A stretch of DNA of 37,926 nucleotides, taken from a virus. The stretch is taken from positions 1 through 37,926 of IMG/VR virus record IMGVR_UViG_3300047277_000147; one strand, given 5' to 3'. The notes below the pieces were generated by a model, which made no database searches, was not told the origin of the DNA, and saw nothing but the letters and a program-made list of their open reading frames with translations. The position numbers and the translations under genes are program-made. This document shows positions 20,624 to 37,650 of the stretch, piece after piece; the stretch's first letter is position 1, and the number at the start of each line of letters is the position of its first letter.

Positions 20624-20850
20624 TGTTAGTTAAAGTAAATGATTCTACATTTGTAAGAGATATTCAATCTGGGGCGTTAATCAATCAAGATTATTCGTCC
20701 CGTGATGAATATTATGCTAAAGTTAAAATGATAACCAACCAAAAACAAGAACTAAATACCGTAAGGTCAGAGATAGATGTTATCAAAAATGATATCTCGG
20801 AAATTAAACAGTTAATGTTCGCATTATTAAACAAGGGTTCAAATGGCTAA
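20623..20850 (+). CDS. Small coiled-coil virion-associated protein
   Basis: 75 residues. It starts MLVKVNDSTFVRDIQSGALI and ends in a heptad-like helix (EIDVIKNDISEIKQLMFALL) that predicts a short coiled coil. I recall similar small proteins next to the large DUF4815-type protein and the first fibre in T4-like cyanophages, where they may act as connectors or assembly helpers; the function is unproven. The ATG overlaps the preceding stop by one base (TAATG), and its last eight bases overlap the start of the 1033-aa fibre. The AAGGG ribosome site of the fibre lies inside it. Confidence 0.72.
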   Translation: MLVKVNDSTFVRDIQSGALINQDYSSRDEYYAKVKMITNQKQELNTVRSEIDVIKNDISEIKQLMFALLNKGSNG

Positions 20851-23800
20851 TACAACATCAATTTTAAGTTATGCCAACACATTTGGTGATTGGGTTGTTC
20901 AATCTAATTCATTATCTAAAGAAAATAATGATTTGGCTGCAAATAATTATATTAAACCAACCGGTACACTTTACTTAAATGGTTTACCATTAGGACTTCA
21001 AGTAGCTAATAATGCAGTTGTCGGTGGTCAATTACAGGTTCAAGGTATAGGATCTTCCGCATTTATACAAAATAACCTTACAGTCTCAACTGGTCAAGTA
21101 TATTTTTCAAATACTATATTGGGATTGACTAACGCAGGTCAAGCAAATATTGGAGGACCTCTATTAGCATTATCTTCAGGAAATGGTTTAATCGTTTCTA
21201 ATAATGCAATAGTTCAAGGTAACACTTCAGTTTGGGGTAATACTATAATCACCGGCAATACTTCAATTGCTAACAATCTGGTAGTTACAAAAAACACATC
21301 ATCAAATAACATAAACATCACATATAACTCAAATACTAACACATTAACAGTATTTAATAATGCTTATGTCAATAATGATTTAAATGTATCAAACAAAACA
21401 CTAACTTACACACTCCAAGCAAATTCTAGTGTTAATACCGAAACACTTGGTGTCACTGGTTCTAGTTTCTTAAACATTGTTCAAGCAAACACCAATGTTA
21501 ATACGGCAACTTTAAGTGTTGCTGGAAATAGTATTTTAAATATAGTTCAAGCCAATACCAATGTCAACACAGCAACCTTGAGTGTCACTGGTTCTGGTTT
21601 CTTAAACATCGTTCAAGCAAATACCAATGTTAATACAGCAACATTAAGTGTTACCGGCACATCATATATCAATACAGTTGTCGCTAATGGAACAACATCA
21701 CTATTAAGTGATGTTGTTGTTGGTAATCCGACAGGTACACCAGCAAATTTAACTGTTACTGGAAATTTTGTTATTAATGGACAAACATTATTAGACACCG
21801 ATAGATTAACATTAAAAGCTGTTTCACCACAGACGATTGGTGCTGGATATGATTATCTTGTTATTAATCGAGGAGAATCAACAAATGTTGTTAATGCAAA
21901 TTCACAAATAAGATGGAACGAACCTAGTAGATATTGGGATATTCGAGATATATCTTCACCAACAAATTATTATAGAATATTAACTAATCAACATCTAAGC
22001 GATTCAACAACTACAGCAAACTCTACTATTGTTGCAACAGCACAAGCAGTTAAATCTCTTAATGATAATTTGCAAAGTCAGATCACAGCTAATGTGTCAA
22101 TTTTAAGTGCTGCAGTTACTTCATCATATTCTAGAGCAAATACATCAGCAAATTCTTTCATATGTACAACCGGTTCTATAACTCCAGCATCTGGTGTTGT
22201 TTCATTAACTAGTGGTAATGGTATCACCGCTGTTGGTTCTGGTAGCACAATTACTATCAATACAGCACAAGACATAAGAACAACTGCAAGTCCAACATTC
22301 CAAGGATTAGCATTAACATCCGCACTACCATTGATTTATGGTGGTACAGGTGCAACATCATCAGCAGGCGCATTAGCTAATATGTTACCTGGAGGTGCTA
22401 CTTATGGTTATGTATTGACTACGGGTGGTGTTGGAAGTTATTCTTGGACACCACAAACAGGAACATCAGGTGTTCCACCAGGAACAACAATAAACTCGGC
22501 TAGATTAAGTTATACCGCTACTGCTGGACAAACACTTTTTACCACACCAACATATATTATTGGTTCTGGTCAATTAAGAGTTTATGTGGATGGTGTTAGA
22601 CAATACCTTTCTGATTATGTCGAAACAACCACCACATCAGTTACATTAAATGTCGGTTGTACGTTAAACGACACTGTATTGGTTGAAGTTGATGGTTATG
22701 TCATTAACCCATATTACGCAAACAATATAACATTTACATCACCACAGGGTGGTATAGTTGCTGCAGCAAACACTATACAAGCAGCTATTGCAGATTTGGA
22801 AACAAGAAAAGCAACATTAGCTTCACCACAATTAACAGGAACACCATTATCAGTAACAGCTGCAGTAGGAACTAATAATACACAAATAGCAACTACTGGT
22901 TTTGTTTATAATGTTTTAGGCACAACATCAGCAACATATGCACATAGCATCTCAGGTAATGCTGCAGGATTATCAGCAACATTAGCAGTAGCTTCTGGCG
23001 GTACTGGTGTTACTACAAGCACAGGAACTGGCAGTAATGTATTATCAACAAGTCCAACTTTGGTTACTCCAGCATTAGGCACACCAACAAGCGGAACATT
23101 AACCAACTGTACACTACCATACTCTGGATTAACAGGAACTGTTCCTACTTGGAACCAAAATACTACAGGACTAGCAGCAAAAGCATCTACACTATCTCAA
23201 AGTGGTGGAACTGGAGTTGCTATGACATTTAATTGGGCTGGTCAAGGTGGACAACCAACTTGGTTATGGGGCGGTAATGATGGTTCTAATCATTACGTTT
23301 ATAATCCATCCAATTTCAGTGTAAATTATGCTTCTTCTTCCGGAGCATGCTCCGGAACAGCAACTTACTCTAATGCAGCCAATGCCCAATGGCAATCAGC
23401 TGGGATTAATGGCCACACAACCTCCGGTGATGTGGCTAGTGCAAGAATTAATAATTCTGGTGGTACGGGTGACGCTGCTGTTGCTGCATTAGCGTTCCTA
23501 GCACAAGGTTATTATGGAATTCATCTACATGTGCGTGCTGACGGATATTTTGGGTTAGGTGGTTGGTCAAGGCCAGCTTGGTCTTGGTATTCTGATCCGT
23601 CCGGAAACATGGTAGCTGCTGGTAATGTTACTGCTTATTCCGACCCCAGACTTAAAGAAAACTTTGAAATTATTAAAAGTCCATTTGATATTATCGATAA
23701 AATTGATGGCGGCACATTTAATTGGAAATCTGGATTCACACACACCGAATGTAAATCGGGTAAAAGGGATTATGGTATTTTAGCTGATCAAGTAGAAAGT

Positions 23801-23944
23801 GTTATGCCTGAAATTGTGACAGAATCTATTGAAATTGATGGTGAATCGTATAAAACTGTTGCTTATGAAAAATTAGTTCCGGTATTAATTGAAGCAATTA
23901 AAGAATTGAAATTAGAGATTGACGTTCTAAAAGGAAACAAATAA
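20843..23944 (+). CDS. Tail fibre with C-terminal Peptidase_S74 self-cleaving chaperone
   Basis: 1033 residues. The N-terminal 100 residues (SYANTFGDWVVQSNSL, ANNYIKPTGTLYLNGL) look like a virion attachment region. Residues about 188-275 are four 22-residue repeats containing NTNVNTATLSVTG. Near residues 550-615 is a beta module (YTATAGQTLFTTPTYIIGSG, RVYVDGVRQYLSDY). A TPALGTPTSGTLTNC module at about 735-775 is shared with the next fibre. The C-terminal 100 residues are an intramolecular chaperone: YSDPRLKENFEII, then DYGILADQVESVMPEIVTE and a final helix ELKLEIDVLKG. Ser933 and Lys938 match the Ser/Lys catalytic pair of endosialidase-type chaperones (spacing of five), so self-release after trimer folding is expected. 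Confidence 0.88.
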   Translation: MANTTSILSYANTFGDWVVQSNSLSKENNDLAANNYIKPTGTLYLNGLPLGLQVANNAVVGGQLQVQGIGSSAFIQNNLTVSTGQVYFSNTILGLTNAGQANIGGPLLALSSGNGLIVSNNAIVQGNTSVWGNTIITGNTSIANNLVVTKNTSSNNINITYNSNTNTLTVFNNAYVNNDLNVSNKTLTYTLQANSSVNTETLGVTGSSFLNIVQANTNVNTATLSVAGNSILNIVQANTNVNTATLSVTGSGFLNIVQANTNVNTATLSVTGTSYINTVVANGTTSLLSDVVVGNPTGTPANLTVTGNFVINGQTLLDTDRLTLKAVSPQTIGAGYDYLVINRGESTNVVNANSQIRWNEPSRYWDIRDISSPTNYYRILTNQHLSDSTTTANSTIVATAQAVKSLNDNLQSQITANVSILSAAVTSSYSRANTSANSFICTTGSITPASGVVSLTSGNGITAVGSGSTITINTAQDIRTTASPTFQGLALTSALPLIYGGTGATSSAGALANMLPGGATYGYVLTTGGVGSYSWTPQTGTSGVPPGTTINSARLSYTATAGQTLFTTPTYIIGSGQLRVYVDGVRQYLSDYVETTTTSVTLNVGCTLNDTVLVEVDGYVINPYYANNITFTSPQGGIVAAANTIQAAIADLETRKATLASPQLTGTPLSVTAAVGTNNTQIATTGFVYNVLGTTSATYAHSISGNAAGLSATLAVASGGTGVTTSTGTGSNVLSTSPTLVTPALGTPTSGTLTNCTLPYSGLTGTVPTWNQNTTGLAAKASTLSQSGGTGVAMTFNWAGQGGQPTWLWGGNDGSNHYVYNPSNFSVNYASSSGACSGTATYSNAANAQWQSAGINGHTTSGDVASARINNSGGTGDAAVAALAFLAQGYYGIHLHVRADGYFGLGGWSRPAWSWYSDPSGNMVAAGNVTAYSDPRLKENFEIIKSPFDIIDKIDGGTFNWKSGFTHTECKSGKRDYGILADQVESVMPEIVTESIEIDGESYKTVAYEKLVPVLIEAIKELKLEIDVLKGNK
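21404..21667 (+). repeat. Four tandem 66-bp repeats in the S74 fibre
   Basis: Units begin at 21404, 21470, 21536 and 21602 and each code 22 residues with a QANTNVNTATLSVTG-like core. The DNA differs between units mainly at third positions while the protein stays nearly constant, so the units are older than those of the downstream adhesins and selected at protein level. Confidence 0.85.
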
Positions 23945-24754
23945 ATGACAACTAAGGTCAGATCATCGGTACTAGAAAACACCGCAGTTACAGCAGGCAC
24001 TTATGGTAGCACCACTACACATTCTACATTTACAGTAGATGCTCAAGGTAGACTTACCGCAGCTAGTTCTGCAACACCAAGTATAGCCAGTTCCCAGATA
24101 ACAGGAACAACAGGTTCTGGTAATGTAGTATTAGCAACAAGTGCAACGTTGGTTTCTCCAATATTAGGAACACCAACAAGTGGAACATTAACCAATTGTG
24201 CCGGTTTACCATATTCTGGATTGACAGGAACTGTACCAACATGGAATCAAAGCACCACAGGTAATGCTGCTACAGCATCATCATTGAATGGTACATGGAC
24301 ACAAATGCCCACAGGCACACGCGTTCCTTTTGCACAAGCAGCAGCTCCTACAGGGTGGACTCAAGACGTTACTGATAATGCCACTAACCGTATGCTTAGG
24401 GTGGTTAATACTACTGGTAACGGTATTGGTGGTACAGCATCACCTATTTTAAACAATACCGTACCATCACATACGCATGGGTTTTCTACTGGTGGGCAAA
24501 GCGCCAACCACGTGCATTATGATGCTGGGCATGCTCACACTATATCAAATAGGGCTAATAGTCACAATGGTGCGGGGAAAGTCACTGAAGGAGGGGATGC
24601 ACCAGAAGGCGCATACCCATATACCGATGTTGGATATGCAAGTTTAGGTGGATTCAGTGCTGACCATTACCACTCAGGTAGTACAGATAATGGTTCAAGC
24701 CAGACAAACTGGACTCCACGCTATATTGATATGATTATTTGTGCTAAAAATTAA
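23945..24754 (+). CDS. Tail fibre tip protein with four HxH motifs
   Basis: 269 residues. Residues 10-45 carry a TAGTYGSTTTHSTFTVDAQG pattern common in phage fibres. Residues 60-115 repeat the TPTSGTLTNC / LPYSGLTGTVPTWNQ module of the preceding fibre. Residues 120-160 (RVPFAQAAAPTGWTQDV, NRMLRVV) and the end PRYIDMIICAKN are typical of fibre collar/tip domains. Between them are HTH (176-178), HVH (189-191), HAH (196-198) and HYH (241-243). In T4 gp12 and gp37 such histidines bind metal along the fibre needle, so a metal-stabilised receptor-binding tip is likely. The tip-coding part is clearly richer in GC than its surroundings. AAGGAAA precedes the start. Confidence 0.85.
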   Translation: MTTKVRSSVLENTAVTAGTYGSTTTHSTFTVDAQGRLTAASSATPSIASSQITGTTGSGNVVLATSATLVSPILGTPTSGTLTNCAGLPYSGLTGTVPTWNQSTTGNAATASSLNGTWTQMPTGTRVPFAQAAAPTGWTQDVTDNATNRMLRVVNTTGNGIGGTASPILNNTVPSHTHGFSTGGQSANHVHYDAGHAHTISNRANSHNGAGKVTEGGDAPEGAYPYTDVGYASLGGFSADHYHSGSTDNGSSQTNWTPRYIDMIICAKN

Positions 24755-25309: not shown

Positions 25310-25317
25310 TATAAATA
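25310..25317 (+). promoter_or_regulatory. T4-type late promoter (TATAAATA)
   Basis: An exact TATAAATA stands in the 50-base gap between two genes, 37 bases before the ATG at 25355. This is the T4 late promoter -10 consensus; late transcription would start a few bases downstream and leave a short leader with the AGGGA ribosome site. It is the only exact copy I found between genes. Confidence 0.6.
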
Positions 25318-25354: not shown

Positions 25355-25921
25355 ATGCCAATAGTTCTTAGACAGGTTAAAGGAACTCCATTATCAGTAG
25401 ACGAGGTTGATGGTAATTTTACCTATTTAAACGATAATGCAAATCTTACAGGTGAGGTAACAACTGTTGGTAAGGTAACAACGTTATCAACCACAGGAGT
25501 TACCGCTGGGTATTATACTTCTGCAAATATTACAGTTGACAACAAAGGCAGAATATCATTCGCAAACAATGGTATAGGGGGAACAGCAACCACCACCGTT
25601 ACTGGTAATGTGGGGAGTCCCACACTGGTGGATACATTTTCAACTTTAACATTTAGAAGTGCTAAATATGAAATGCAGATATCTGATTCTATTGGCAAAC
25701 ACCAAATAACGGAACTAAGAGTTTTTTGGGATTCTACATCAGAAGTACCATACATTACTGAATATGGAACAATGATAACGCTTGATGGCACTCCAATGGG
25801 CACTTTTAGTGTCGATTATGATGGAACAGCAGAAAAGGTGAGTTTGAATTTTACACCAATAACAACATATGCAAATGAAATTATATTCATACGAAATATA
25901 ATACCGAAAGGTAGTTATTAA
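25355..25921 (+). CDS. Fibre-related virion protein
   Basis: 188 residues. It begins MPIVLRQVKGTPLSVDEVDG and NFTYLND, an N-terminus often seen on marine phage fibre and virion proteins. Residues 30-75 (GKVTTLSTTGVTAGYYTSAN, TVDNKGRISFANNG) form the same beta pattern as the start of the 269-aa fibre tip. The second half is a beta-rich domain (ELRVFWDSTSEVPYIT, YGTMITLDGTPMGTFSVDYD) ending in IIFIRNIIPKGSY. It is preceded by a TATAAATA promoter and an AGGGA ribosome site, so it probably heads its own late transcript. It may be a short fibre or a decoration protein. Confidence 0.7.
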   Translation: MPIVLRQVKGTPLSVDEVDGNFTYLNDNANLTGEVTTVGKVTTLSTTGVTAGYYTSANITVDNKGRISFANNGIGGTATTTVTGNVGSPTLVDTFSTLTFRSAKYEMQISDSIGKHQITELRVFWDSTSEVPYITEYGTMITLDGTPMGTFSVDYDGTAEKVSLNFTPITTYANEIIFIRNIIPKGSY

Positions 25922-25942: not shown

Positions 25943-26200
25943 ATGAGAGAAACTTTGACACCCGAACAACAAGCAGAACAAGCAACTAATGATTTGCGTT
26001 CAGCTATGGATAGTGTAAACTTGATTAACAAATTAGTTTCAGAAGGTATACATTCTGAACAATTTGATAGTCGTGTACAATCAAACTATCAACATCTGGA
26101 AATAGTATTAGCCCGTGAAAATGTTATTGCAGATTCTTCCGATAAAACACCATATCTACAAGCAATAGAATCAGGTAAAGCGTTCGCACCAACAGTATAA
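25943..26200 (+). CDS. Small helical hypothetical protein
   Basis: 85 residues with a clear ribosome site (AGGAAA) ahead of the ATG. The sequence is mostly helical and acidic (EQQAEQATNDLRSAMDSVNL, NKLVSEGIHSEQFDSRV). I do not recognise a family. It ends just before the hairpin at 26205-26250, so it is probably the last gene of the transcript that starts near 25310. Confidence 0.65.
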   Translation: MRETLTPEQQAEQATNDLRSAMDSVNLINKLVSEGIHSEQFDSRVQSNYQHLEIVLARENVIADSSDKTPYLQAIESGKAFAPTV

Positions 26201-26204
26201 AATC

Positions 26205-26250
26205 AATAAATGGGAGACTACTATATAACATAGTCTCCCAACCATTTATT
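26205..26250 (+). terminator. Hairpin, putative terminator between fibre genes and enzyme cassette
   Basis: GGGAGACTA (26212-26220) and TAGTCTCCC (26231-26239) form a perfect nine-pair stem with a ten-base loop. AATAAATGG (26205-26213) and CCATTTATT (26242-26250) are also complementary and could extend or replace the stem base. There is no long run of T after it, so it may be a weak terminator or an RNA-processing or stability element. It lies in a 62-base gap, the largest in this part of the window. Confidence 0.55.
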
Positions 26251-26262
26251 ATGGAATAACAT

Positions 26263-27057
26263 ATGCAACACGAATTGGTTCTGTTATCAGGATTACCTAG
26301 ATCCGGATCAACAATATTAACATCATTACTGAATCAGCACACCCAAATTAAAGCAACAACAACATCACCAGTATTAAGTATGATACTCAATTTTTATACA
26401 AATTGGGAATCACACACAACAGCTCAAGAATCCGATAAGAACACACAACAAAGAAAAGATATGACCCGTGCAATGATAGAATCTGCACATAAACATTTCA
26501 ATTCACCGATAGTCGTGGATAAAAATAGAGGTTGGCCAAAAAGTTCAAAATTATTGACCGAGCTACTAGACAACCAACCAAAATACATATGCACCGTACG
26601 CAATATTCCCGACATATTAGCATCTTTCGTAACATTAGCTAACAAAGACCCAAATAATTTTATAGACAATGCGTTAAAAGAATCTGGATTTGCTGTTAAT
26701 AATACAAATAGATGTAGGTTATTATGGAATTCAGGTGTGGTTGGTGAATCTTGGCAATGTTTTAAAAGTGGATATCAATTCAACAAAAATAACATGTTGA
26801 TTTTAGAATATGAAGATATTGTTTCCAGGCCACTAATGGTTATGGAACAAATAGAAGAATACTTAGGAATAGACCATTTTTATTATGATATATATAATTT
26901 AAAACCCATGAAAGAAAAAGATGAAAATCATGGTATAAAAGGATTACATGATATTAGACCTAGTATTAGTAAAACATCCAAACCGGCCGAAGCGATTATT
27001 GGTGTAGGATTAACACAACATTATAATGATATGAAATTAGATTTTTGGCATAAATGA
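26263..27057 (+). CDS. PAPS-dependent sulfotransferase
   Basis: 264 residues, a normal length for a small sulfotransferase. The N-terminus has the 5'-phosphosulfate-binding loop LLSGLPRSGSTILTSLL (PRSGST at residues 12-17). The 3'-phosphate site is TVRNIPDILASF at about 111-122, where the family usually has a VRDPxDxxxS pattern. VDKNRGW at 85-91 and LEYEDIVSRPLMVMEQIEEY at about 183-202 also fit the fold. It should move sulfate from PAPS to a hydroxyl or amino group; the acceptor is unknown and could be a sugar or a protein. It is the first gene after the hairpin, and an APS-kinase-like gene that could supply PAPS lies three genes downstream. Confidence 0.82.
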   Translation: MQHELVLLSGLPRSGSTILTSLLNQHTQIKATTTSPVLSMILNFYTNWESHTTAQESDKNTQQRKDMTRAMIESAHKHFNSPIVVDKNRGWPKSSKLLTELLDNQPKYICTVRNIPDILASFVTLANKDPNNFIDNALKESGFAVNNTNRCRLLWNSGVVGESWQCFKSGYQFNKNNMLILEYEDIVSRPLMVMEQIEEYLGIDHFYYDIYNLKPMKEKDENHGIKGLHDIRPSISKTSKPAEAIIGVGLTQHYNDMKLDFWHK

Positions 27058-27065
27058 GGTTATAA

Positions 27066-28016
27066 ATGAAAAAAGTATTTTGGATTGATGGTGGTGCCGG
27101 TCGTATTATTGCAGCTATTCCTGCATTACTTAAATATAATAGATTGAATCCAAATGATGATTGGACAGTCATCGCTGCAGGATTTAACAATTTGTATTGG
27201 GGTATACCAGAACTACAAGATCGAACTTATGGATTAGACGACAAAGGAGTATTCGACAATATAATCAAATATGCTGATGTGGTTGTTACTCCAGAACCAT
27301 ATAGAAATCCTGCATATTTCAATCAAAAGATTTCTTTAGTAGAAGCATTTGATGTTGAAATTAATGGAACCCACGATCATTCGGATTTAGGTGTTCCAAA
27401 ATTAGTTTTTGATAAATCCGAAACTACAGTGTCAACAACAACATTAGGTGAACTTAAACAACGCCAAAAGAAACAAAAAACAATCATATTTCAGCCGTTT
27501 GGTCGTGGTGCTGCTGTTACATCACAACACACAGATGGTCAAGCCACAGACGTTGAAGATGTGGAATCCAGAAGTTTGTCGGCTGAATCATATCTATCAT
27601 TAGCTAAAAAATTGTCTTTAAAATATAATCTAGTATTTTTTGGCGAACCACAATTCCAACTTCAACAAGACAGTTTTGCTTCAAATTACACTTGCGATTT
27701 GCGTCAATGGGGATCACTAATAGAACAAGCTGATTATTTTGTTGGTGTAGATTCAGTTGGTCAACATATGGCCAGAGCTATGAATGTACCAGGAACAGTG
27801 ATATTCGGGTCAACATTCCCCATAAACACATCATATCCAGATTTCTTTCAAATATTAGAAAAAGAAGGTGTTAAAAAATATTCTCCTATAAGATTGATGG
27901 GGTTGGATGCTATATTATCAAACAGAATTAATGATAAACTTATGGATTTCGACGAAAAGGAAATCAATGAGATATTTAAGAAAATTGTTTCACATATAGA
28001 ATTGAAGGTGAAATAA
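27066..28016 (+). CDS. Glycosyltransferase, GT9 (heptosyltransferase)-like
   Basis: 316 residues with a two-Rossmann GT-B layout. The N-terminus KKVFWIDGGAGRIIAAIPAL contains the glycine-rich turn of the acceptor domain. The C-terminal domain starts near IIFQPFGRGA (140-149). The family's best motif lies at 225-250: FVGVDSVGQHMARAMNVP followed by TVIFGST, corresponding to the nucleotide-sugar site of GT9 enzymes (usual form DSGxxHxAxA). This suggests transfer of a sugar, heptose or another, to a surface glycan. The GAGG ribosome site is just before the ATG. Its stop overlaps the carbamoyltransferase start by one base (TAATG), so the two are made together. Donor and acceptor cannot be read from the sequence. 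Confidence 0.75.
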   Translation: MKKVFWIDGGAGRIIAAIPALLKYNRLNPNDDWTVIAAGFNNLYWGIPELQDRTYGLDDKGVFDNIIKYADVVVTPEPYRNPAYFNQKISLVEAFDVEINGTHDHSDLGVPKLVFDKSETTVSTTTLGELKQRQKKQKTIIFQPFGRGAAVTSQHTDGQATDVEDVESRSLSAESYLSLAKKLSLKYNLVFFGEPQFQLQQDSFASNYTCDLRQWGSLIEQADYFVGVDSVGQHMARAMNVPGTVIFGSTFPINTSYPDFFQILEKEGVKKYSPIRLMGLDAILSNRINDKLMDFDEKEINEIFKKIVSHIELKVK

Positions 28017-29716
28017 TGGCATATAATATATTAGCGATTAATCCAGGACATAATGGATCAGCAGCATTGGTATCTGATGGTGAAATAGTATTTTATGGTG
28101 AGGAAGAAAGATTTTCACGAATGAAATATGATGGTAATCCATTCAGAGCAATGCTCCAAGTATTAACAAGTTTTACAGTAGATGAATTTGTTATTGGCGG
28201 AACATCAAATGATTTAGCAGGATTACCATGGACAGGCGAAGATGCATATACAGCATTAGTTAGAAAATATAACCCAAATGTTAAAATAACCAAATTTGGC
28301 GAGAAACATCATTTTGGTCATGTAAGTAATGCATTTTATAATTCGGGATTTAAAACAGCAGCAGCTGTAATTGTCGATGGATCAGGTTCATTTCATGTCG
28401 AACGAATGGGTACAGAAGAATTCGCTCCAGTAACGGGAGGATATGAAACAGAATCAATATTCATGTGTTCTTATCCAGCAGAATTTACACCAGTTTATAA
28501 AAGATATGCTGACGGTAATAGCATATCATATGATAATGGACTTAAAGATTTTGATGATACCGTTACCATAACCAAAGCTTATGAAGCAGTTACAGATTAC
28601 TTAGGATTCCATGTTATTGAAGCTGGTAAAACTATGGGATTAGCGCCATACGGAAAATTTGATGAAAATATTCCTCCTATATTTGTACAAGGTAGAGGTA
28701 ATAAAAATCTATTAAGACCAAATTACCCAGCAATGGCGACCGTTGATGAATTTAGATTTCCATATCTAGTTAGACATGGCGACCATAAAGAATGGCAATA
28801 CAACGAAACTATGGTGGACGATAAACAAAAAAATATCGCATATCATGTACAACAAGAAACTCAACAATTGGTGGCCAAGTTAATACAAAAAGCACACGAT
28901 GATACCGGAGAAACAAACATCGTTATATCTGGAGGATATGGATTAAATTGTGTAGCAAATTACTTCTACAAAAAAGTATTTCCTAATCTAAATATCTATG
29001 TCGATCCACTATCTCATGATGGCGGAACATCTCTAGGATTAGCATTATATGCTTGGCATGTTAAATCACAAAACACCACACCCAATAAGTTACAAAATCT
29101 ATATTTATCCGGATATCCAACATATGAAAATGTCGATCTCATATTATCGAAATTTGACACATTGAAAATTAAAGATGTTACTGATGAAGTTGTTGCTGAG
29201 ATATTATCGGAAGAAAATATCGTATGTTTCTTCAATGGTCGTGCTGAAGGTGGACCTAGAGCACTAGGCAACAGATCAATATTGTTTGATCCCAGAGTAT
29301 TGGATGGTAAAGACGTTGTTAATAGAGTAAAAGGTCGAGAATGGTTTAGACCATTTGCCGGTTCCATTTTAAAGGAATATGCAACAGAATGGTTTGATTT
29401 GGCTGGAATGGACGAATCACCTTTTATGATGTATGCTGTAAATACATTGGAAGATAAGGTAGATTTGATACCATCAATAACACATGTTGATGGTACTTGC
29501 AGAATTCAAACAGTATCCAAAACAGACAACCAAAATTATCACAAGTTATTAACAGCGTTTTATGAAAAAACTGAGGTGCCGATATTATTCAACACTAGTT
29601 TTAATTTAGCTGGTGAACCTTTAGTGGAAACTGTATTTGATGCAATACAAACATTAAACAATTGCGATATCGAATATTTATATCTACCAGAAATCGGTAA
29701 ATTGATATACAAATGA
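28016..29716 (+). CDS. Carbamoyltransferase, NodU/CmcH/TobZ family
   Basis: 566 residues, the usual length for the family. The N-terminal Kae1-like domain opens ILAINPGHNGSAALVSDG and has KHHFGHVSNAFYNSGF (His98, His99 and His102), the likely metal/carbamoyl-adenylate site. KTMGLAPYG, SGGYGLNCVANYFYKK and PLSHDGGTSLGLAL follow. The C-terminal domain has GRAEGGPRALGNRS (408-421) and KGREWFRPF (439-447), both strongly conserved. These enzymes use carbamoyl phosphate and ATP to carbamoylate a hydroxyl, often on a sugar. Pairing with the glycosyltransferase by a one-base overlap suggests a sugar substrate. All key motifs look intact. It overlaps the next gene by four bases (ATGA). Confidence 0.93.
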   Translation: MAYNILAINPGHNGSAALVSDGEIVFYGEEERFSRMKYDGNPFRAMLQVLTSFTVDEFVIGGTSNDLAGLPWTGEDAYTALVRKYNPNVKITKFGEKHHFGHVSNAFYNSGFKTAAAVIVDGSGSFHVERMGTEEFAPVTGGYETESIFMCSYPAEFTPVYKRYADGNSISYDNGLKDFDDTVTITKAYEAVTDYLGFHVIEAGKTMGLAPYGKFDENIPPIFVQGRGNKNLLRPNYPAMATVDEFRFPYLVRHGDHKEWQYNETMVDDKQKNIAYHVQQETQQLVAKLIQKAHDDTGETNIVISGGYGLNCVANYFYKKVFPNLNIYVDPLSHDGGTSLGLALYAWHVKSQNTTPNKLQNLYLSGYPTYENVDLILSKFDTLKIKDVTDEVVAEILSEENIVCFFNGRAEGGPRALGNRSILFDPRVLDGKDVVNRVKGREWFRPFAGSILKEYATEWFDLAGMDESPFMMYAVNTLEDKVDLIPSITHVDGTCRIQTVSKTDNQNYHKLLTAFYEKTEVPILFNTSFNLAGEPLVETVFDAIQTLNNCDIEYLYLPEIGKLIYK

Positions 29717-30132
29717 AAATATTGATAATGGGTCTTCCTGGATCAGGCAAGACCTTTTTAACCAAAGAACTGAAGAAACAACTTGAACAATTGGGTAAAA
29801 GTGTTTCTTGGTTTAATGCGGATATTATTAGAGAGAAATTTGATGATTGGGATTTTACCACGGAAGGTAGAATTCGACAATCAGTTCGCATGAATCAATT
29901 ATCGGAAGAATCTGATTCCGATATTGTTTTATGCGATTTTGTTGCACCGTTAGAAGAAATGCGTAATAATTATAATGCAGATATTACTATTTGGGTAGAT
30001 ACGATATCGAAAAGTATATTTGAAGACACCAATAAATTGTTTGTTAACCCTATTAAATATGATTTTAGGGTGACCGAACAAGATTGTGAATATTGGGCTG
30101 GTGAAGTAATAAATAACATAAATATAGGTTAA
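29713..30132 (+). CDS. cysC: Short APS-kinase (CysC)-like P-loop kinase
   Basis: 139 residues, shorter than cellular APS kinases (about 200 aa). The P-loop GLPGSGKT is at 7-14. Next comes FNADIIREKFDDWDFTTEGR and IRQSVRMN (34-61), corresponding to the substrate-binding D(G/A)DxxR and GRxxNxxR region of CysC. DFVAPLEEMR (75-84) matches the family's F(I/V)xPxxxxR, and WVDTISKSIFEDTNKLFV (94-111) the following strand and lid. An APS kinase phosphorylates adenylylsulfate to PAPS, the donor for the sulfotransferase at 26263. The C-terminal part is cut short, so another small-molecule kinase role is possible. It overlaps the carbamoyltransferase stop by four bases. Confidence 0.72.
   Translation: MKILIMGLPGSGKTFLTKELKKQLEQLGKSVSWFNADIIREKFDDWDFTTEGRIRQSVRMNQLSEESDSDIVLCDFVAPLEEMRNNYNADITIWVDTISKSIFEDTNKLFVNPIKYDFRVTEQDCEYWAGEVINNINIG
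30117..30124 (+). promoter_or_regulatory. Possible late promoter (CATAAATA)
   Basis: CATAAATA lies at the 3' end of the kinase gene, 35 bases before the ATG at 30160, nearly the same spacing as the better promoter at 25310. A relaxed NATAAATA late motif is, as I recall, reported for T4-like cyanophages. In DNA this AT-rich a chance match is possible. Confidence 0.35.
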
Positions 30133-30159: not shown

Positions 30160-33100
30160 ATGGACATGTACTTCAAAGTAAAAAATGGATTATCGGTAAA
30201 TAACAAAAAGGTATTAGATTCGAGCGGTAATTTATTATTAGATTCATTGGGAAATTTAGTAATTGGTGGTGGAACAGCAGGCACAGGTTCTCATAATATT
30301 GCTACCGGTAATGGTGCATTATTTTATAACACCACAGGTAATTATAATATTGCAACTGGTAAATATGCATTAAGACTTAACACCACAGGCTGTAATAATA
30401 TTGCTACCGGTAATGGTGCATTATTTTATAACACCACAGGTAATTATAATATTGCAACTGGACAAAATGCATTAAGACGTAACACCACAGCTTCTAATAA
30501 TATCGCTACTGGAATAAATGCATTATATTGTAACACCACAGGTTCTAATAATATTGCTACTGGTCGTGATGCGTTAGCTAGTAACACCACAGGTTCTAAT
30601 AATATTGCTACCGGTTATGGTGTATTATATTGTAACACCACAGGCTGTAATAATATTGCAACAGGATACGATGCGTTACGAAATAACACCACAGGTTGGT
30701 CTAATGTTGCAACCGGTCATTATGCTTTAAGAAATAACACCACAGGTTCTTATAATATTGCTACTGGCCAATGTGCATTAAGAAATAATTATACAGGTTG
30801 GTCTAATATTGCTACCGGCTATGGTGCTTTAAAATGTAACACCACAGGTTCTTATAATATTGCTACTGGCCAATGTGCATTATTTTATAACACCACAGGT
30901 TGGTATAATATTGCTACCGGCAAGTGTGTATTATTTCGTAATACTACAGGTTCTTATAATATTGCAACCGGTGAAGGTGCATTATTTTATAACACCACAG
31001 GTTCTAATAATATCGCTACCGGTTGTGCTGCTTTAAAATGTAACACCACAGGTTCTAATAATATTGCTACCGGTGAAGGTGCATTATTTTATAACACCAC
31101 AGGTTCTGATAATATTGCTACTGGTCGTGAAGCATTAAAATGTAACTCCACAGGTTCTTATAATATTGCTACTGGTCGTGAAGCATTAAAATGTAACACC
31201 ACAGGTTATGGCAATATCGCTACTGGTGTTAGTGCATTAAGAAATAATACTACAGGTTCAAGTAATATCGGTATCGGTTACCGGGCTGGGATTGATGTGG
31301 CAACTGGAAGCAATAACACAATTATTGGTAATTTAACAGGCACAACAGCACTTTCAAGTACAGTTCTACTTGGTGCGGGCGATGTTGAGAGATTAAAGGT
31401 TAATTCAACTGGATTGTATATCAATGGTTCTTTGTTTACTAGCGGTGTAGCAGTTTATGGTGGGTTAGCTAATATTTTAACTTCAACCTTAGCTGGTGTT
31501 AATTTCATTGGAGAACATGGTTTAGTTTATAATTCTTTTACACCAGAAGCTACAGTTACTTCAATTTCAAACACACTTTTAGGCACAGGATTATTAAATC
31601 AAATTGCTTATGGTATTCATAATGACGAATATTTTAAATTCAATATACCTTGGAATATAGAATATTTTGGCAAATCTTACAATGCAGGATATATTTGTTC
31701 TAATAGTTTTCTTTCTTTTGCACACGGTTCTACATTAAATCAAAATTTTGCTGCAAATTCACCACTTTTACCTAAGATATTAATTGCCTCTGCTAATAAT
31801 TATACACAAGGGATATATTCGGGGGAATTAGGTACTACACCAGATAGAACTTTTGTAGTTAGATATGAGGGTTTAACATCTATTAGTGGTGGTGGGATGT
31901 TAAATGTTGCACCTATAGAAAATATAATATTAGGTCCATTAGCATTAGATTATTACACAACTCCAGATGTAGGCAGTACCGATGATGGTTATTATATTGC
32001 AGCTATTCCTTGGGATATATCTTATTTGGGCAGTCTTTATAATACAGTTTATATAGGAACCAATAGTTATCTTACATTTAGTGACGGTGCAGTTCAATTT
32101 TCGGGTTTTGCTGCAAATTCACCAGGTTTACCTAAGATATTAATAGAAGCGCAGGATAATTTTGCGGGTTCTGTGTATTATGGTGTAGAAGGTGTTGCGC
32201 CAGATAGAACCTTTAGAATCCGTTATGAAGCGGGTGCCCCTAATGAATCCAATGTTGATTGGGAAGCAACTTTCTACGAAAATGATATTTCTAGGATTGA
32301 TATTCAACTAGGGAGTTATAGTTATGTACCCCTTGGATTTTCTGGATTATATTCAGCAGACACTTGGGTGGCTGATTTGCTTGGATCATCTTATATCGGC
32401 ATGAGTATTACTGCAGTGATTCCAGTAGCCACAAATATGATATGGGAAGCAACTTTCTATGAAAATGATATTTCTAGGATTGATATTCAAATAGGGGAAA
32501 ATAATAGACTTGATGGTATCTCTGGTATCTATACTGAAAATGAATGGGTTGCTGGTTTACCTATTACTTCAAATACTGGTAATAGTATTGTAACAAGCAA
32601 AGTAATACAACCAGATAATATTACTGTTGATTCTACTATTCGATTTGACGAACTTAATTCTTTAGCTATTGGTGGAGGATTAAGTTTATCTGTTCCCACA
32701 TTAGGGGGTTCATACAATACTGATAATATTGCAATAGGATTTGGAGCTCAGAATCTAAATGTAACAGGTGGTAAAAATATCGCAATTGGGACAGAGGCCT
32801 TACATTGGTCTAATGATGGGTGGGGAAATGTTGCAATAGGGTGTCGTTCATTATTTTGTAACACCACAGGTTCTTATAATATTGCTACTGGATCATATGT
32901 ATTAATAAATAATACCACAGGTTCTAATAATATCGCTACCGGTTATGGTGTATTATATTGTAACACCACTGGACGTGATAATATTGCTATCGGTAATGGT
33001 GCTTTAAGATTTAACAGCACAGGTTCTTATAATATTGCAACTGGACTATATGCATTAAGATGTAACACCACAGGTTCTTATAATATTGCTACCGGTTATG

Positions 33101-35361
33101 GTGTATTATATTGTAACACCACAGGCTGTAATAATATTGCTACCGGTAAAGGTGCATTAAGACATAACACCACAGGTTCTAATAATATTGCTACCGGTTC
33201 ATGTGCATTAAGATGTAACACCACAGGTTATATGAATATTGCTACCGGTAATGCTGCTTTAAAATGTAACACCACAGGTCATAATAATATTGCTACCGGT
33301 TATAGTGCATTACTACGTAACACCACAGGTTCTGATAATGTTGCTACCGGTAAAGGTGCATTAAGATATAACAGCACAGGTTCTGATAATATTGCAACTG
33401 GTTCATGTGCATTAAGATTTAACACCACAGGTAATTCTAATGTTGCTACCGGTAAAGGTGCATTAAGATTTAACAGCACAGGTTCTTATAATGTTGCTAC
33501 CGGTGATGGTGCATTAAGATATAACACCACAGGTTATAATAATGTTGCTACCGGTAAAGGTGCATTATTTTGGAATCACACAGGTTGTAATAATGTTGCA
33601 ACTGGTAAATATGCATTAAGATATAACACCACAGGTTATAGTAATATCGCTACTGGACCAAGTGCTTTGTACAATAACACCACAGGTTCTTGTAATATTG
33701 CTACTGGTCGTGATGCATTATTTTATAACACCACAGGATCTCAGAATATTGCTACCGGTTATGGTGCATTAGCATTTAACACCACAGGTTCTAATAATAT
33801 TGCCACCGGTGTGAGTGCATTAAGAAGTAACTCCACTGGACGTGATAATATTGCTACCGGTCGGCGGGCATTATTTCATAACACCACAGGTTCTTATAAT
33901 ATAGCTACTGGTGCTTATGCATTAAGATATAACAGCACAGGTTCTAATAATATCGCAACAGGTTCATGTACATTAAGATATAACACCACCGGTAATTCTA
34001 ATATTGCAACAGGATACGAATCGTTAGGAAATAACAGCACAGGTTCTTATAATATTGCCACAGGCGGATTAACATTAAAATGCAATACTACAGGCAGTAA
34101 TAATATTGCTGTCGGTCAACAAGTGTTAAGATACAATACAACAGGTTATAATAATATTGCTACCGGTTCATGTGCATTAACACATAACACCACAGGCAGT
34201 AATAATATTGCAACCGGTGAAGGTGCATTATTTTATAACACCACAGGTTCTAATAATATCGCTACCGGTTGTGCTGCTTTAAGAAGTAACTCCACTGGAC
34301 GTGATAATATTGCTACCGGTGAAGGTGCATTAAGATATAACACAACAGGGTGTGATAATATTGCTACCGGTCAGTGGGTATTATATTGTAACACCACAGG
34401 TTATGGCAATATCGCTACTGGTGTTAGTGCATTATTTTATAACACCACAGGTTCTCATAATATTGCTGTTGGTTCTCAAGCTTTAAGATGTAACACAACA
34501 GGTTCTTATAATATATCTACCGGTAATGCTGCTTTAAAATGTAACACCACAGGTCATAATAATATTGCCACCGGTGATTGTGCATTATTTAGTAACACCA
34601 CAGGTTATAATAATGTTGCCGTAGGTGGATTAACATTAAAATGCAATACTACAGGTTATAATAATGTTGCCGTAGGTGGATTAACATTAAAATGCAATAC
34701 TACAGGCAGTAATAATATTGCTACCGGTAATGGTGCATTAAATAATAATACCGCAGGTCATCATAATATTGCTACTGGTAAATATGCATTAAATAATAAT
34801 ACCACCGGGTGTTGTAATATTGCTACCGGTGCTTATGCATTAAGATGTAACACCACAGGTAATTCTAATGTTGCTACTGGTGCTTATGCATTAAGATGTA
34901 GCACCACAGGTAATTCTAATGTTGCTACTGGACCAAGTGCATTAAGATTTAACACCACAGGCTTTGGTAATATAGCTACTGGACCATGTGCATTAATATG
35001 CAATACAACAGGTTATAATAATATTGCTACTGGTATGGGTGCTTTGTACAATAACACCACAGGACGTAATAATATTGCTTCCGGATTGATTGCATTAAAA
35101 AATAATACGACAGGTTGTAATAATATTGGTATTGGTAAAGGTGCTTTGTACAATAACACCACAGGTTCTAATAATACATTTATCGGTTCTTATTATTCAA
35201 CAACATTATCAGATACGGTCGCAATAAATGCAGGATTATGTAATCGTCTTAAAATCAATTCCGTTGGTCTTTATGTCAATGGTTCTCTATTTACTGGAAC
35301 CGCAGGTATATCCAGTCAAGTAATAAATACACCTAACGCATTCTTATTAATGGGAGCATAA
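30160..35361 (+). CDS. Giant repeat adhesin/fibre with two beta-roll arrays
   Basis: 1733 residues. After a short start (1-39) comes array 1 (40-396), 21 copies of a 17-residue repeat of the form NTTGxxNIATGxxALxx. A cap (397-429: ALSSTVLLGAGDVERLKVN, GLYINGSLF) follows. A non-repeat region (430-866) holds two related globular modules sharing PKILI and PDRTF motifs. Array 2 (867-1682) has 48 copies, ending in a related cap (1683-1716: RLKINSVGLYVNGSLF). The repeat resembles YadA-head-like beta-rolls of trimeric adhesins, so a long stiff trimeric fibre is likely. AGGGGA (30145-30150) sets this start. There is no S74 domain at the end. Receptor binding is inferred. Confidence 0.82.
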   Translation: MDMYFKVKNGLSVNNKKVLDSSGNLLLDSLGNLVIGGGTAGTGSHNIATGNGALFYNTTGNYNIATGKYALRLNTTGCNNIATGNGALFYNTTGNYNIATGQNALRRNTTASNNIATGINALYCNTTGSNNIATGRDALASNTTGSNNIATGYGVLYCNTTGCNNIATGYDALRNNTTGWSNVATGHYALRNNTTGSYNIATGQCALRNNYTGWSNIATGYGALKCNTTGSYNIATGQCALFYNTTGWYNIATGKCVLFRNTTGSYNIATGEGALFYNTTGSNNIATGCAALKCNTTGSNNIATGEGALFYNTTGSDNIATGREALKCNSTGSYNIATGREALKCNTTGYGNIATGVSALRNNTTGSSNIGIGYRAGIDVATGSNNTIIGNLTGTTALSSTVLLGAGDVERLKVNSTGLYINGSLFTSGVAVYGGLANILTSTLAGVNFIGEHGLVYNSFTPEATVTSISNTLLGTGLLNQIAYGIHNDEYFKFNIPWNIEYFGKSYNAGYICSNSFLSFAHGSTLNQNFAANSPLLPKILIASANNYTQGIYSGELGTTPDRTFVVRYEGLTSISGGGMLNVAPIENIILGPLALDYYTTPDVGSTDDGYYIAAIPWDISYLGSLYNTVYIGTNSYLTFSDGAVQFSGFAANSPGLPKILIEAQDNFAGSVYYGVEGVAPDRTFRIRYEAGAPNESNVDWEATFYENDISRIDIQLGSYSYVPLGFSGLYSADTWVADLLGSSYIGMSITAVIPVATNMIWEATFYENDISRIDIQIGENNRLDGISGIYTENEWVAGLPITSNTGNSIVTSKVIQPDNITVDSTIRFDELNSLAIGGGLSLSVPTLGGSYNTDNIAIGFGAQNLNVTGGKNIAIGTEALHWSNDGWGNVAIGCRSLFCNTTGSYNIATGSYVLINNTTGSNNIATGYGVLYCNTTGRDNIAIGNGALRFNSTGSYNIATGLYALRCNTTGSYNIATGYGVLYCNTTGCNNIATGKGALRHNTTGSNNIATGSCALRCNTTGYMNIATGNAALKCNTTGHNNIATGYSALLRNTTGSDNVATGKGALRYNSTGSDNIATGSCALRFNTTGNSNVATGKGALRFNSTGSYNVATGDGALRYNTTGYNNVATGKGALFWNHTGCNNVATGKYALRYNTTGYSNIATGPSALYNNTTGSCNIATGRDALFYNTTGSQNIATGYGALAFNTTGSNNIATGVSALRSNSTGRDNIATGRRALFHNTTGSYNIATGAYALRYNSTGSNNIATGSCTLRYNTTGNSNIATGYESLGNNSTGSYNIATGGLTLKCNTTGSNNIAVGQQVLRYNTTGYNNIATGSCALTHNTTGSNNIATGEGALFYNTTGSNNIATGCAALRSNSTGRDNIATGEGALRYNTTGCDNIATGQWVLYCNTTGYGNIATGVSALFYNTTGSHNIAVGSQALRCNTTGSYNISTGNAALKCNTTGHNNIATGDCALFSNTTGYNNVAVGGLTLKCNTTGYNNVAVGGLTLKCNTTGSNNIATGNGALNNNTAGHHNIATGKYALNNNTTGCCNIATGAYALRCNTTGNSNVATGAYALRCSTTGNSNVATGPSALRFNTTGFGNIATGPCALICNTTGYNNIATGMGALYNNTTGRNNIASGLIALKNNTTGCNNIGIGKGALYNNTTGSNNTFIGSYYSTTLSDTVAINAGLCNRLKINSVGLYVNGSLFTGTAGISSQVINTPNAFLLMGA
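30277..31347 (+). repeat. Array 1: 21 tandem 51-bp coding repeats
   Basis: Twenty-one uninterrupted 51-base units, each coding 17 residues (NTTGxxNIATGxxALxx). The first unit and the last two are diverged, as expected for array ends. No unit is out of frame. Many neighbouring units are nearly identical in DNA (for example the NTTGSNNIATG part), pointing to recent expansion. Confidence 0.9.
31575..32240 (+). repeat. Two related globular modules between the arrays
   Basis: Two homologous protein segments in tandem, roughly 31575-31870 and 31960-32240. Both contain IPW, YNxxYI, FAANSP, LPKILI and PDRTF in the same order. The pattern resembles nidogen-like extracellular modules, but that naming is tentative. 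Short stretches of DNA identity remain, such as the one coding FAANSP, near 31750 and 32107. Confidence 0.6.
32261..32490 (+). repeat. 47-bp direct repeat coding WEATFYENDISRIDIQ
   Basis: 32261-32307 and 32444-32490 are the same 47 bases apart from one synonymous change (TAC/TAT). They sit between the globular modules and array 2 and mark a recent duplication of a short beta element. Confidence 0.85.
32758..35205 (+). repeat. Array 2: 48 tandem 51-bp coding repeats
   Basis: Forty-eight consecutive units of exactly 51 bases (2448 in total) with no gap, coding the same 17-residue repeat as array 1. The first two units and the last two are diverged. Cysteine is frequent at repeat position 17 (LRC, LKC, LYC). 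Two adjacent units near 34618-34705 (VAVGGLTLKC) are almost identical, evidence of recent unit duplication. Confidence 0.92.
35322..35329 (+). promoter_or_regulatory. Possible late promoter (AATAAATA)
   Basis: AATAAATA lies inside the end of the 1733-aa gene, 33 bases before the ATG at 35363. The spacing is similar to the motifs at 25310 and 30117. It is weak evidence by itself because the motif lies in coding, AT-rich DNA. Confidence 0.25.
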
Positions 35362-35362
35362 T

Positions 35363-35692
35363 ATGGCTATAACATATAAAGTCTTAGGACAAGCAGCACC
35401 AACAGCAACAACACTAACAACACTTTATACCGTTCCAGCTGGAACATCAACAGTTTGTTCCACTCTGACAATATGTAATAGAGATGTGTCTACACCATTC
35501 AGGATAGCAGTTAGACCGGCAGGAGCAACATTAGAAACACAACATTATATCATATTTGACAATTATGTTAATCAGTATGACTCGGTATTCCTAACATTAG
35601 GACTATCATTAGGTGCAACAGATGTGGTATCTGTATATGCAGGTACAGCAAATGTTAGTTTTTCATTATTTGGATCAGAGTTGACTGCGTGA
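35363..35692 (+). CDS. Small virion protein between adhesin genes
   Basis: 109 residues. It starts ITYKVLGQAAPTATTLTTLY and continues TVPAGTSTVCSTLTICNRD, then QHYIIFDNYVNQYD, and ends VSFSLFGSELTA. This is a compact all-beta pattern that I associate with small structural proteins of marine T4-like phages; no enzymatic motif is present. It lies two bases after the giant repeat fibre. Its stop overlaps the GTG start of the leucine-rich-repeat protein (GTGA), so it is translationally coupled to that adhesin and may serve as its adaptor or decoration. Confidence 0.7.
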   Translation: MAITYKVLGQAAPTATTLTTLYTVPAGTSTVCSTLTICNRDVSTPFRIAVRPAGATLETQHYIIFDNYVNQYDSVFLTLGLSLGATDVVSVYAGTANVSFSLFGSELTA

Positions 35693-37650
35693 CAATTAAT
35701 AAAGTTCAAGATTATGGTTTGGGTAAAAAACATAGTGGAATTCCACCAATCACTTATCCCATAACAGACACAACAACCGCTTGGGTTAGACCTGCCGATT
35801 GGTTAGCATTACCAACACTAACTACCTCTGATCAGAAGTTTGTTGGATTACATATGGTTCTGGAGGATGGTTTCTATTGTGCTTTGGTTGCAACGGGTAA
35901 CTATACAGTTGATTGGGGTGATGGTAATATCATTAACTATGCTACAGGTGTAATAGCAGAACATCAATATGACTTCACAAATATTAATCTAGGAGCAGCT
36001 ACATCTGAAGGTTGGAAACAGGCGGTAGTAACTGTTACTCCTCAAGCTGGACAAAATCTAACCACTTTAAATCTACATAAGAAACATAGTGCAATGGCAA
36101 CAGGGGCAGCTGCTGTTATACCCAATAGTGGTTTTGTGGATATATCTATTGCAGGTTCTTTACTTACATCTTTGTTGGTTGGTACATCGGTTGTTGGGGC
36201 AGCAACACCCAGGACCATATCCTTCAGGAAACTAAAACAAGTTAATATTGTTAAATCGGCGGTTGCCAATACAAGCTATCTGTTTTATAATTGTTATTCA
36301 TTAGTTAGTGTAGTAGGTATAGATGCTGCTTGTACTTTTGCGGCATATATGTTCCAAAGTTGTTCTTCATTACAAACAGTTCCTTTATTTAATCTAGCTG
36401 CTTGTACTAATGCATCAAATATGTTCAATAGTTGTTCTTCATTACAAACAGTACCATTGTTTAATTTAGCTGCTTGTACTAATACAACAGGTATGTTCGC
36501 TAGTTGTTATTCATTACAAACAGTACCATTGTTTAATTTAGGTGTTTGTCTTAATGCAACACAGATGTTCTATGGTTGCTATTCATTACAAACAGTTCCA
36601 TTGTTTAATCTAGGTGTTTGTCTTAATACATCATATATGTTCCAAAGTTGTGCTTCATTACAAACAGTTCCTTTATTTAATTTAGCTGCTTGTAATACCG
36701 CACCATATATGTTCGCTAGTTGTTATTCATTACAAACAGTTCCTTTGTTTAATTTAGCTGCTTGTACTTTTGCGGCATATATGTTCAATGGTTGCTATTC
36801 ATTACAAACAGTACCATTGTTTAATCTAGCTGCTTGTACTAATGCACCAAGTATGTTCAATGGTTGCTATTCATTACAAACAGTACCATTGTTTAATTTA
36901 GCTGCTTGTACTGATGCATCATACATGTTCTATAATTGTTATTCATTACAAACAGTACCATTGATTAATTTAGCTGCTTGTACTAATGCATCATATATGT
37001 TCTATAATTGTTCATTACAAACAGTACCGTTGTTTAATCTAGCTGCTTGTACTAATGCATCATATATGTTCTATAATTGTGATGCATTACAAACAGTACC
37101 ATTGTTTAATCTAGGTGTTTGTCTTAATACATCATATATGTTCCAAAGTTGTGCTTCATTACAAACAGTTCCTTTATTTAATTTAGCTGCTTGTCTTAAT
37201 GCATCATACATGTTCTATAATTGTTATTCATTACAAACAGTACCATTGATTAATTTAGCTGCTTGTACTAATGCATCATATATGTTCTATAATTGTTCAT
37301 TACAAACAACAGTACCATTGTTTAATTTAGCTGCTTGTACTAATGCATCAAATATGTTCCAATATTGTTATTCATTACAAACAGTACCATTGTTTAATCT
37401 CACAAACGTTACTACTGGGCAGGCAGCAAATATGTTCAATAGTTGCTCCTCCCTTACTAAAGGAACGACCATTAATCTTAAGTTTTCTGTAGCTTATACC
37501 AACTGCAATCTTTCACCCACTGCTCTAAATGACATATATACTAACTTAGGTACAGCAACTACCCAAACAATTACAGTAACAGGAAACTGGGGTACTGCCT
37601 CAGATGACCCCGCTATTGCAATAATCAAAGGCTGGACGGTGACAGGATAA
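35689..37650 (+). CDS. BspA-type leucine-rich-repeat adhesin with PKD-like N-terminal domain
   Basis: 653 residues starting with GTG, which overlaps the preceding stop (GTGA). Residues 30-95 contain TTAWVRPADWLALPTLTTSD and NYTVDWGDGN; WGDG is typical of PKD-like beta-sandwich domains. Residues 204-587 are 16 repeats of about 24 residues, each with SLQTVPLFNL then MFxxC, the BspA/DUF285 type of leucine-rich repeat found in surface adhesins. The C-terminal 65 residues (KFSVAYTNCNLSPTALNDIY, TITVTGNWG) cap the array. A cell-binding or fibre-tip role is likely but unproven. The repeats are near-identical in DNA. The next gene begins one base before its stop ends and repeats its N-terminal domain. 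Confidence 0.82.
   Translation: MTINKVQDYGLGKKHSGIPPITYPITDTTTAWVRPADWLALPTLTTSDQKFVGLHMVLEDGFYCALVATGNYTVDWGDGNIINYATGVIAEHQYDFTNINLGAATSEGWKQAVVTVTPQAGQNLTTLNLHKKHSAMATGAAAVIPNSGFVDISIAGSLLTSLLVGTSVVGAATPRTISFRKLKQVNIVKSAVANTSYLFYNCYSLVSVVGIDAACTFAAYMFQSCSSLQTVPLFNLAACTNASNMFNSCSSLQTVPLFNLAACTNTTGMFASCYSLQTVPLFNLGVCLNATQMFYGCYSLQTVPLFNLGVCLNTSYMFQSCASLQTVPLFNLAACNTAPYMFASCYSLQTVPLFNLAACTFAAYMFNGCYSLQTVPLFNLAACTNAPSMFNGCYSLQTVPLFNLAACTDASYMFYNCYSLQTVPLINLAACTNASYMFYNCSLQTVPLFNLAACTNASYMFYNCDALQTVPLFNLGVCLNTSYMFQSCASLQTVPLFNLAACLNASYMFYNCYSLQTVPLINLAACTNASYMFYNCSLQTTVPLFNLAACTNASNMFQYCYSLQTVPLFNLTNVTTGQAANMFNSCSSLTKGTTINLKFSVAYTNCNLSPTALNDIYTNLGTATTQTITVTGNWGTASDDPAIAIIKGWTVTG
35767..35956 (+). 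repeat. Copy 1 of duplicated N-terminal domain DNA
   Basis: This 190-base stretch recurs at 37737-37926 with five mismatches, all in the first 63 bases; the last 127 bases are identical. The window ends inside the second copy, so the true length of the duplication is not known. Confidence 0.95.
36298..37449 (+). repeat. 16 tandem leucine-rich repeats (72-bp unit)
   Basis: Sixteen units span 1152 bases. Most are 72 bases; units 1, 10 and 14 lack one codon, unit 15 gains one (SLQTTVP), and unit 16 has two extra. Within the array, 36916-37023 equals 37201-37308 (108 bases), and 36601-36693 equals 37102-37194 (93 bases). The array has therefore been reshuffled by recent duplication. Confidence 0.9.

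Follow-up and report, generated by a model that had tools for sequence, protein, structure and literature searches.

In the 37,926-base viral record IMGVR_UViG_3300047277_000147—analyzed over its full length and hereafter called the window—four consecutive plus-strand open reading frames (ORFs) lie inside a block of tail-fibre genes and encode a sulfotransferase (ST), a GT9-like glycosyltransferase (GT9-like), a carbamoyltransferase (CT), and a small P-loop kinase (KIN). The cassette probably builds a heptose-type sugar that bears carbamoyl and sulfate caps and most likely coats the phage's own fibres; this gene set recurs in many aquatic phages. More specifically, and with slightly less than even confidence, we read it as a late operon, linked to the fibre genes, for a heptosyl-carbamoyl-sulfo glycan that decorates the neighboring fibres. 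An earlier note on this DNA had described four tightly coupled genes flanked on both sides by fibre genes. The ORFs are indeed found there, overlapping or 8 bp apart (+8, −1, and −4 bp in the order ST/GT9-like/CT/KIN), every motif quoted at that time is present in the four proteins, and the position inside the fibre block is borne out.

The computed identity of ST is secure as a sequence-based assignment to the 3′-phosphoadenosine-5′-phosphosulfate (PAPS)-dependent sulfotransferases, as had been proposed: ST matches Pfam PF13469 (Sulfotransfer_3) with 2.6e-18, and both PAPS-binding loops are kept, with G10, P12, R13, and G15 of the 5′ loop (PRSG) and R113 and S121 of the 3′ loop being invariant or nearly so among 15 phage homologues. 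Among solved structures, protein-tyrosine sulfotransferases come closest (8.5e-8)—a likeness at the family level, which leaves the acceptor unfixed. It could nevertheless be taken to mean that ST sulfates protein directly, on tyrosine or serine/threonine residues of the fibres, while GT9-like and CT carry out an independent modification, and the occurrence of the GT9–CT pair without ST in some relatives (see below) would agree with that. However, all Sulfotransfer_3 proteins resemble those enzymes, which makes the match nonspecific for substrate, and ST is tightly linked to GT9–CT in the closest relatives, making direct protein sulfation a rather unlikely option. Phage sulfotransferases are on record, but their function in phage genomes "remains unclear" (PMC10580990).

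CT is equally secure, judged by its sequence, as a carbamoyltransferase of the NodU/TobZ type. It matches the Pfam models Carbam_trans_C (1.9e-58) and Carbam_trans_N (1.3e-21), and its relatives in the Protein Data Bank (PDB) are 7xb6 (2.6e-51), NovN, GdmN, and TobZ. The key motifs ascribed to it earlier hold up: the HHxxH metal site of the Kae1-like domain (H98, H99, and H102) together with D335 and the GPRALGNRS motif of the YrdC-like C-domain (G413–S421) are invariant in 13 homologues. Enzymes of this family are also found in phage-like contigs studied by MetaGPA, where the one from a modified-DNA contig carbamoylates 5-hydroxymethylcytosine (PMC8670742). Hence, CT and the glycosyltransferase might hypermodify bases of the phage DNA. 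However, the DNA-modifying enzymes differ from CT in their hydroxymethylcytosine substrate and in adjoining thymidylate synthase and dCMP deaminase, whereas the carbamoyltransferases of unmodified contigs adjoin glycosyltransferases (PMC8670742). The neighbors in the window are GT9-like, ST, KIN, and fibres, joined in relatives by GmhB and HldE/HldD. As a neighborhood of the thymidylate synthase/dCMP deaminase type is missing, DNA hypermodification is very improbable.

For GT9-like, the earlier assignment as a GT9-like glycosyltransferase can be kept and sharpened to a putative enzyme of the ADP-heptosyltransferase type, with the GT-B fold of WaaC and WaaF. By sequence, the protein belongs to phrog_8954 (2.4e-79) and matches Pfam Glyco_transf_9 with 1.4e-5 and 25.0 bits (cut-off 22), a match limited to residues 211 to 255 around the nucleotide-binding motif; the family profile (alignment A1) retrieves no PDB sequence. 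The AlphaFold2 model, with a mean predicted local distance difference test score of 91.3 and a predicted template modeling (TM) score of 0.90, is more informative. Its top Foldseek matches in the PDB are WaaF (5.2e-11, TM score 0.64), the Veillonella GT9 protein 3tov, TibC, and WaaC, and all of the top 30 are GT9-type heptosyltransferases. D229, G232, and H234 are invariant among 21 homologues.

Genes for ADP-heptose synthesis accompany the pair in relatives, which gives the predicted fold a computed genomic counterpart. A GmhB-type heptose-bisphosphate phosphatase directly follows CT in contigs L100, L104, and L005 (PRK08942, 4e-24 to 3e-37), and a GmhB-like phosphatase lies within the cassette of L095. 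L005 additionally encodes a split HldE kinase/adenylyltransferase (rfaE_dom_I, 7e-42; rfaE_dom_II, 6e-29) and an HldD epimerase (heptose_epim, 9e-61), and HldE-II-like genes occur in seven of 12 related records. Taken together, the heptosyltransferase fold and these genes make ADP-heptose the most likely donor of GT9-like. No GmhA isomerase of the SIS type was found in the ADP-heptose gene sets of L002, L003, L004, L005, and L100. These five contigs carry a cupin gene that travels with the heptose set—its L005 copy weakly matches D-lyxose isomerase—and which may replace GmhA, unless the host supplies the isomerase. A further L005 gene (7147–7497), homologous to the "phosphoheptose isomerase" of cyanophage cluster T4-GC 306, rather resembles a capsule-type HAD phosphatase (EcbF-BcbF, 3e-9).

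GT9-like and CT form a conserved unit. In 27 of the 28 loci that contain the two genes, they are directly adjacent on the same strand, −4 to +11 bp apart, over a range of 34–100% identity; these loci include those of the cyanophages P-SSM2, S-SSM7, and S-CAM1, where the pair lies downstream of tail-fibre genes. The full order ST–GT9–CT–KIN is repeated in the viral contigs L008 (75/73/73/55% identity) and L009 (72/72/74/61%); hence, the cassette is more than a chance arrangement. Among 16 contigs chosen by GT9 only, some of which are near-duplicates, CT is present in all, KIN in 11, and one or more STs in 13. The earlier note had suggested looking for co-occurrence as opposed to independent scattering: in related phages, the genes are linked and lie beside fibres. 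By contrast, 84,980 bacterial and archaeal genomes contain just four full-length relatives of the GT9-like family, each with a CT next to it or about 1 kb after it. Three of the loci concerned (L189, L190, and L191) have phage-fibre neighbors beside the GT9-like gene and, thus, resemble phage contigs that ended up in the bins of cellular genomes. The GT9-like family is, therefore, essentially phage-exclusive. Elsewhere, in contigs of up to several hundred kilobases (L047, L090, L052, L095, and L097), larger glycan clusters come after the fibre genes; they contain genes of the GT4, GT2, and FkbM-methyltransferase types and often a second sulfotransferase.

In the mechanism that we propose, GT9-like would use a nucleotide-activated donor, probably ADP-heptose, to transfer heptose or a sugar closely related to it; this donor would come from the host or, in relatives, from phage-encoded GmhB, HldE, and HldD. 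CT would then O-carbamoylate the transferred sugar, as WapO putatively does on heptose II of Pseudomonas, and ST would add sulfate from host PAPS onto the sugar or onto protein. The most likely acceptor would be the repetitive fibre encoded 27 bp downstream of KIN, or a neighboring fibre, comparable to TibC acting on beta-helical autotransporters. Late expression is what the position among virion genes leads us to infer, and the benefit might be fibre masking, adhesion, or stability.

A fibre is favored over the host surface as acceptor by the position of the cassette in the fibre block, by its short distance to a fibre with 60 copies of the motif NxTGxxNxAxG, by the phage exclusivity of the GT9–CT pair, and by the parallel to TibC. 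The latter shares the GT-B heptosyltransferase fold with GT9-like and heptosylates serines of beta-helical adhesins; the hallmark of its family, BAHT, is a four-cysteine iron finger (PMC4358343). GT9-like differs from TibC and AAH in lacking the iron-finger cysteines, in being shorter and phage-encoded, and in its pairing with a carbamoyltransferase. A strong hairpin (−17.9 kcal/mol, z = −4.5), a candidate terminator or mRNA-stability element, sets the cassette apart from the upstream fibre unit and, hence, makes it more likely that the cassette is grouped with the downstream fibre. The repeat fibre also has 4.9 N-X-S/T sequons per 100 residues, compared with 1.3 to 2.8 in other large proteins; this richness was rejected as a sign of N-glycosylation, since it follows from the NTTG repeat.

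Several observations weigh against fibre decoration by the cassette. The acceptor is itself something that we infer. Alignment A1 contains no conserved cysteine, and without the iron finger GT9-like is not filed as a BAHT member. ST is absent beside GT9–CT in the cyanophages and in L099–L101, where heptose-synthesis genes replace ST and KIN, and some relatives (L002–L005 and L099–L101) have no repeat fibre next to the pair. The window, a 38-kb fragment, contains no recognized heptose-synthesis gene. The hairpin counts on this side as well, as it stands between the cassette and the upstream fibre unit. Finally, the LPS (lipopolysaccharide)-type gene clusters of related phages could act on the host surface. 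In that case, a heptose-containing, carbamoylated, and sulfated unit would be put on the LPS or capsule of the host late in infection and mask the receptor, which would keep progeny from sticking to debris and rival phages from superinfecting. Bacterial GT9 heptosyltransferases and WapO-type carbamoyltransferases do work on the LPS core (PMC8005017), large LPS-type clusters exist in related cyanophages (PMC3037559), and the GT4-, GT2-, and FkbM-type companions in L047 and L090 resemble an oligosaccharide cluster. On the other hand, the GT9–CT pair sits amid fibre genes, and bacterial genomes are essentially devoid of it. Moreover, receptor alteration is better known for temperate than for lytic T4-like phages. 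We regard action on the host surface as a possibility to be taken seriously, albeit an unlikely one, and continue to favor the fibres.

The role of KIN departs from what had been claimed, namely that donor synthesis and donor use lie in the same operon. The description as a protein like adenosine 5′-phosphosulfate (APS) kinase stands insofar as APS kinases are the closest matches of the kinase domain in profile and fold comparisons—the fold being that predicted for the homologue in L008, which shares 55% identity with KIN of the window—and as the P-loop, D37, R40, F48, and R53 are conserved and align with the corresponding D, R, F, and R of Escherichia coli CysC. It does not stand for the APS lid (GLYKKARAGELRNFTGID in CysC, with the FTGID motif), which clamps APS and is missing in KIN and in all homologues aligned; accordingly, the match to Pfam APS_kinase (1.6e-10) covers only residues 3 to 89, the first part of the model. 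About 40% of the relatives (41 of 98 homologue matches) are fused to a domain like nicotinamide mononucleotide (NMN) adenylyltransferase, including the L008 and L009 orthologues; the form in the window is without the fusion. The fused domain matches NMN adenylyltransferases (1.6e-5) and not ATP sulfurylase, so that a "mini PAPS synthetase" is disfavored for this fusion.

Genomic context adds to this picture. KIN adjoins ThyX- and ribonucleotide-reductase-like genes in L064 (recognized by eye), NADAR in L006, and other carbamoyltransferases in L035, L074, and L088. Of the 27 distinct KIN loci for which 7 kb of upstream sequence is available, 12 have an ST within that stretch; ST occurs in none of 11 large T4-like contigs chosen by the baseplate gene gp6. 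The linkage is real but partial, as the majority of the KIN loci lack a nearby ST; the records are partly redundant and were selected by query. ATP sulfurylase PF01747 was found in none of 12 related records, a search that did not include sulfurylases of the CysDN type. A working APS kinase, with an operon that makes and uses its own PAPS, would be in line with the profile and fold matches, the conserved residues, and the linkage to ST. Considering the absent lid, the fusions, the ST-free loci, and the lack of a PF01747 sulfurylase, however, PAPS synthesis by the cassette is not supported, KIN is not accepted as a PAPS maker, and we hold that version to be doubtful; host PAPS is the simpler source of the sulfate donor. 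The fusion family itself is widespread in phages, with the signature GRWQPWHxGH ... ISATKIR, and occurs in glycan and nucleotide-metabolism neighborhoods (Table 1).

Table 1. Features of the cassette and its surroundings in the window, and members of the kinase fusion family in related contigs.
Feature	Position	Strand	Size	Description
ST	26263..27057	+	264 aa	PAPS-type sulfotransferase (Sulfotransfer_3)
GT9-like	27066..28016	+	316 aa	putative ADP-heptosyltransferase, phrog_8954
CT	28016..29716	+	566 aa	NodU/TobZ-type O-carbamoyltransferase
KIN	29713..30132	+	139 aa	small P-loop kinase related to APS kinase, lid missing
Repeat fibre gene	30160..35361	+	1,733 aa	candidate acceptor; PHROG tail spike / virion structural families
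Hairpin	26201..26250		20-nt arms	strong; boundary of upstream fibre unit and ST
Small conserved ORF	25943..26200	+	85 aa	between small fibre gene and ST
Small fibre-like gene	25355..25921	+		upstream of cassette; weak tail-collar match
Large fibre/adhesin protein	20843..23944	+		upstream; C-terminal Peptidase_S74 chaperone (Pfam PF13884, 7.1e-10)
Kinase–NMN-adenylyltransferase-like fusions	L008:13739-14599, L009:4332-5150, L076:10001-10804, L064:8808-9599, L006:9992-10732			fusion family members

The genes around the cassette belong to the baseplate and the fibres of a T4-like myovirus: the left part of the window encodes T4-like baseplate proteins, the middle and right large fibres. Among cultured phages, the baseplate proteins have their nearest relatives in Methylophilales phage Melnitz, Pelagibacter phages, and cyanophages; at the DNA level, a search of the region against phages gave zero matches. 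The 85-residue ORF in front of the cassette has a homologue at the equivalent place in L008 (58% identity). A T4-late-promoter-like octamer TATAAATA at 25310–25317, some 38 bp upstream of the small fibre gene, is only suggestive and weak alone as a late promoter; such octamers are not enriched in the window, with three on the plus strand. Within the 1,033-residue fibre protein, a stretch of 53 residues (23039–23194) shares 81% identity with a portion of the gene that follows (23945–24754), which suggests module duplication. At the right end, the stretch 37650–37925, cut by the contig end, is 79% identical to part of a 653-residue protein (35689–37650), an apparent tandem duplication of a fibre-region gene.

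Parts of this chemistry are known singly, as phage glycan gene clusters, cyanophage carbamoyltransferases, and phage sulfotransferases. Closest are the clusters of P-SSM2, S-SSM7, and S-CAM1 (T4-GC 302–308), which likewise contain adjacent GT9-like and carbamoyltransferase genes but, unlike the window, have their own HldE/HldD-type genes and neither sulfotransferase nor KIN; they were described as LPS genes with an unknown role (PMC3037559). WapO (PA5005) of Pseudomonas resembles CT as a carbamoyltransferase beside heptose chemistry, but is a chromosomal bacterial enzyme that acts on the LPS core, its activity as heptose-7-O-carbamoyltransferase being putative (PMC8005017). Mycobacteriophages carry glycans on virion proteins (Freeman et al. 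2023, cited in PMC12619734), which, as far as the cited account goes, sit on capsid and tail tube rather than fibres, with carbamoyl, sulfate, and heptose not reported there. For cyanophage, sulfotransferase, and carbamoyltransferase together, the literature returned nothing, and the linkage of heptose, carbamoyl, and sulfate in a cassette beside fibres was likewise not found.

More broadly, and more tentatively than for the window itself, GT9–CT pairs, with or without ST, may constitute a phage-exclusive protein-heptosylation system, which coats the tail-fibre repeats of many aquatic T4-like phages with carbamoylated and sulfated heptose. The conserved, fibre-linked, and phage-exclusive pair thereby leads to a single testable hypothesis, that of a sugar coat on the fibres or on the host surface, and the cultured phages P-SSM2, S-CAM1, and S-SSM7 make it accessible to experiment. 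If it is true, sulfate, carbamate, and heptose would join the known chemistry of virions, which would gain a modified sugar surface.

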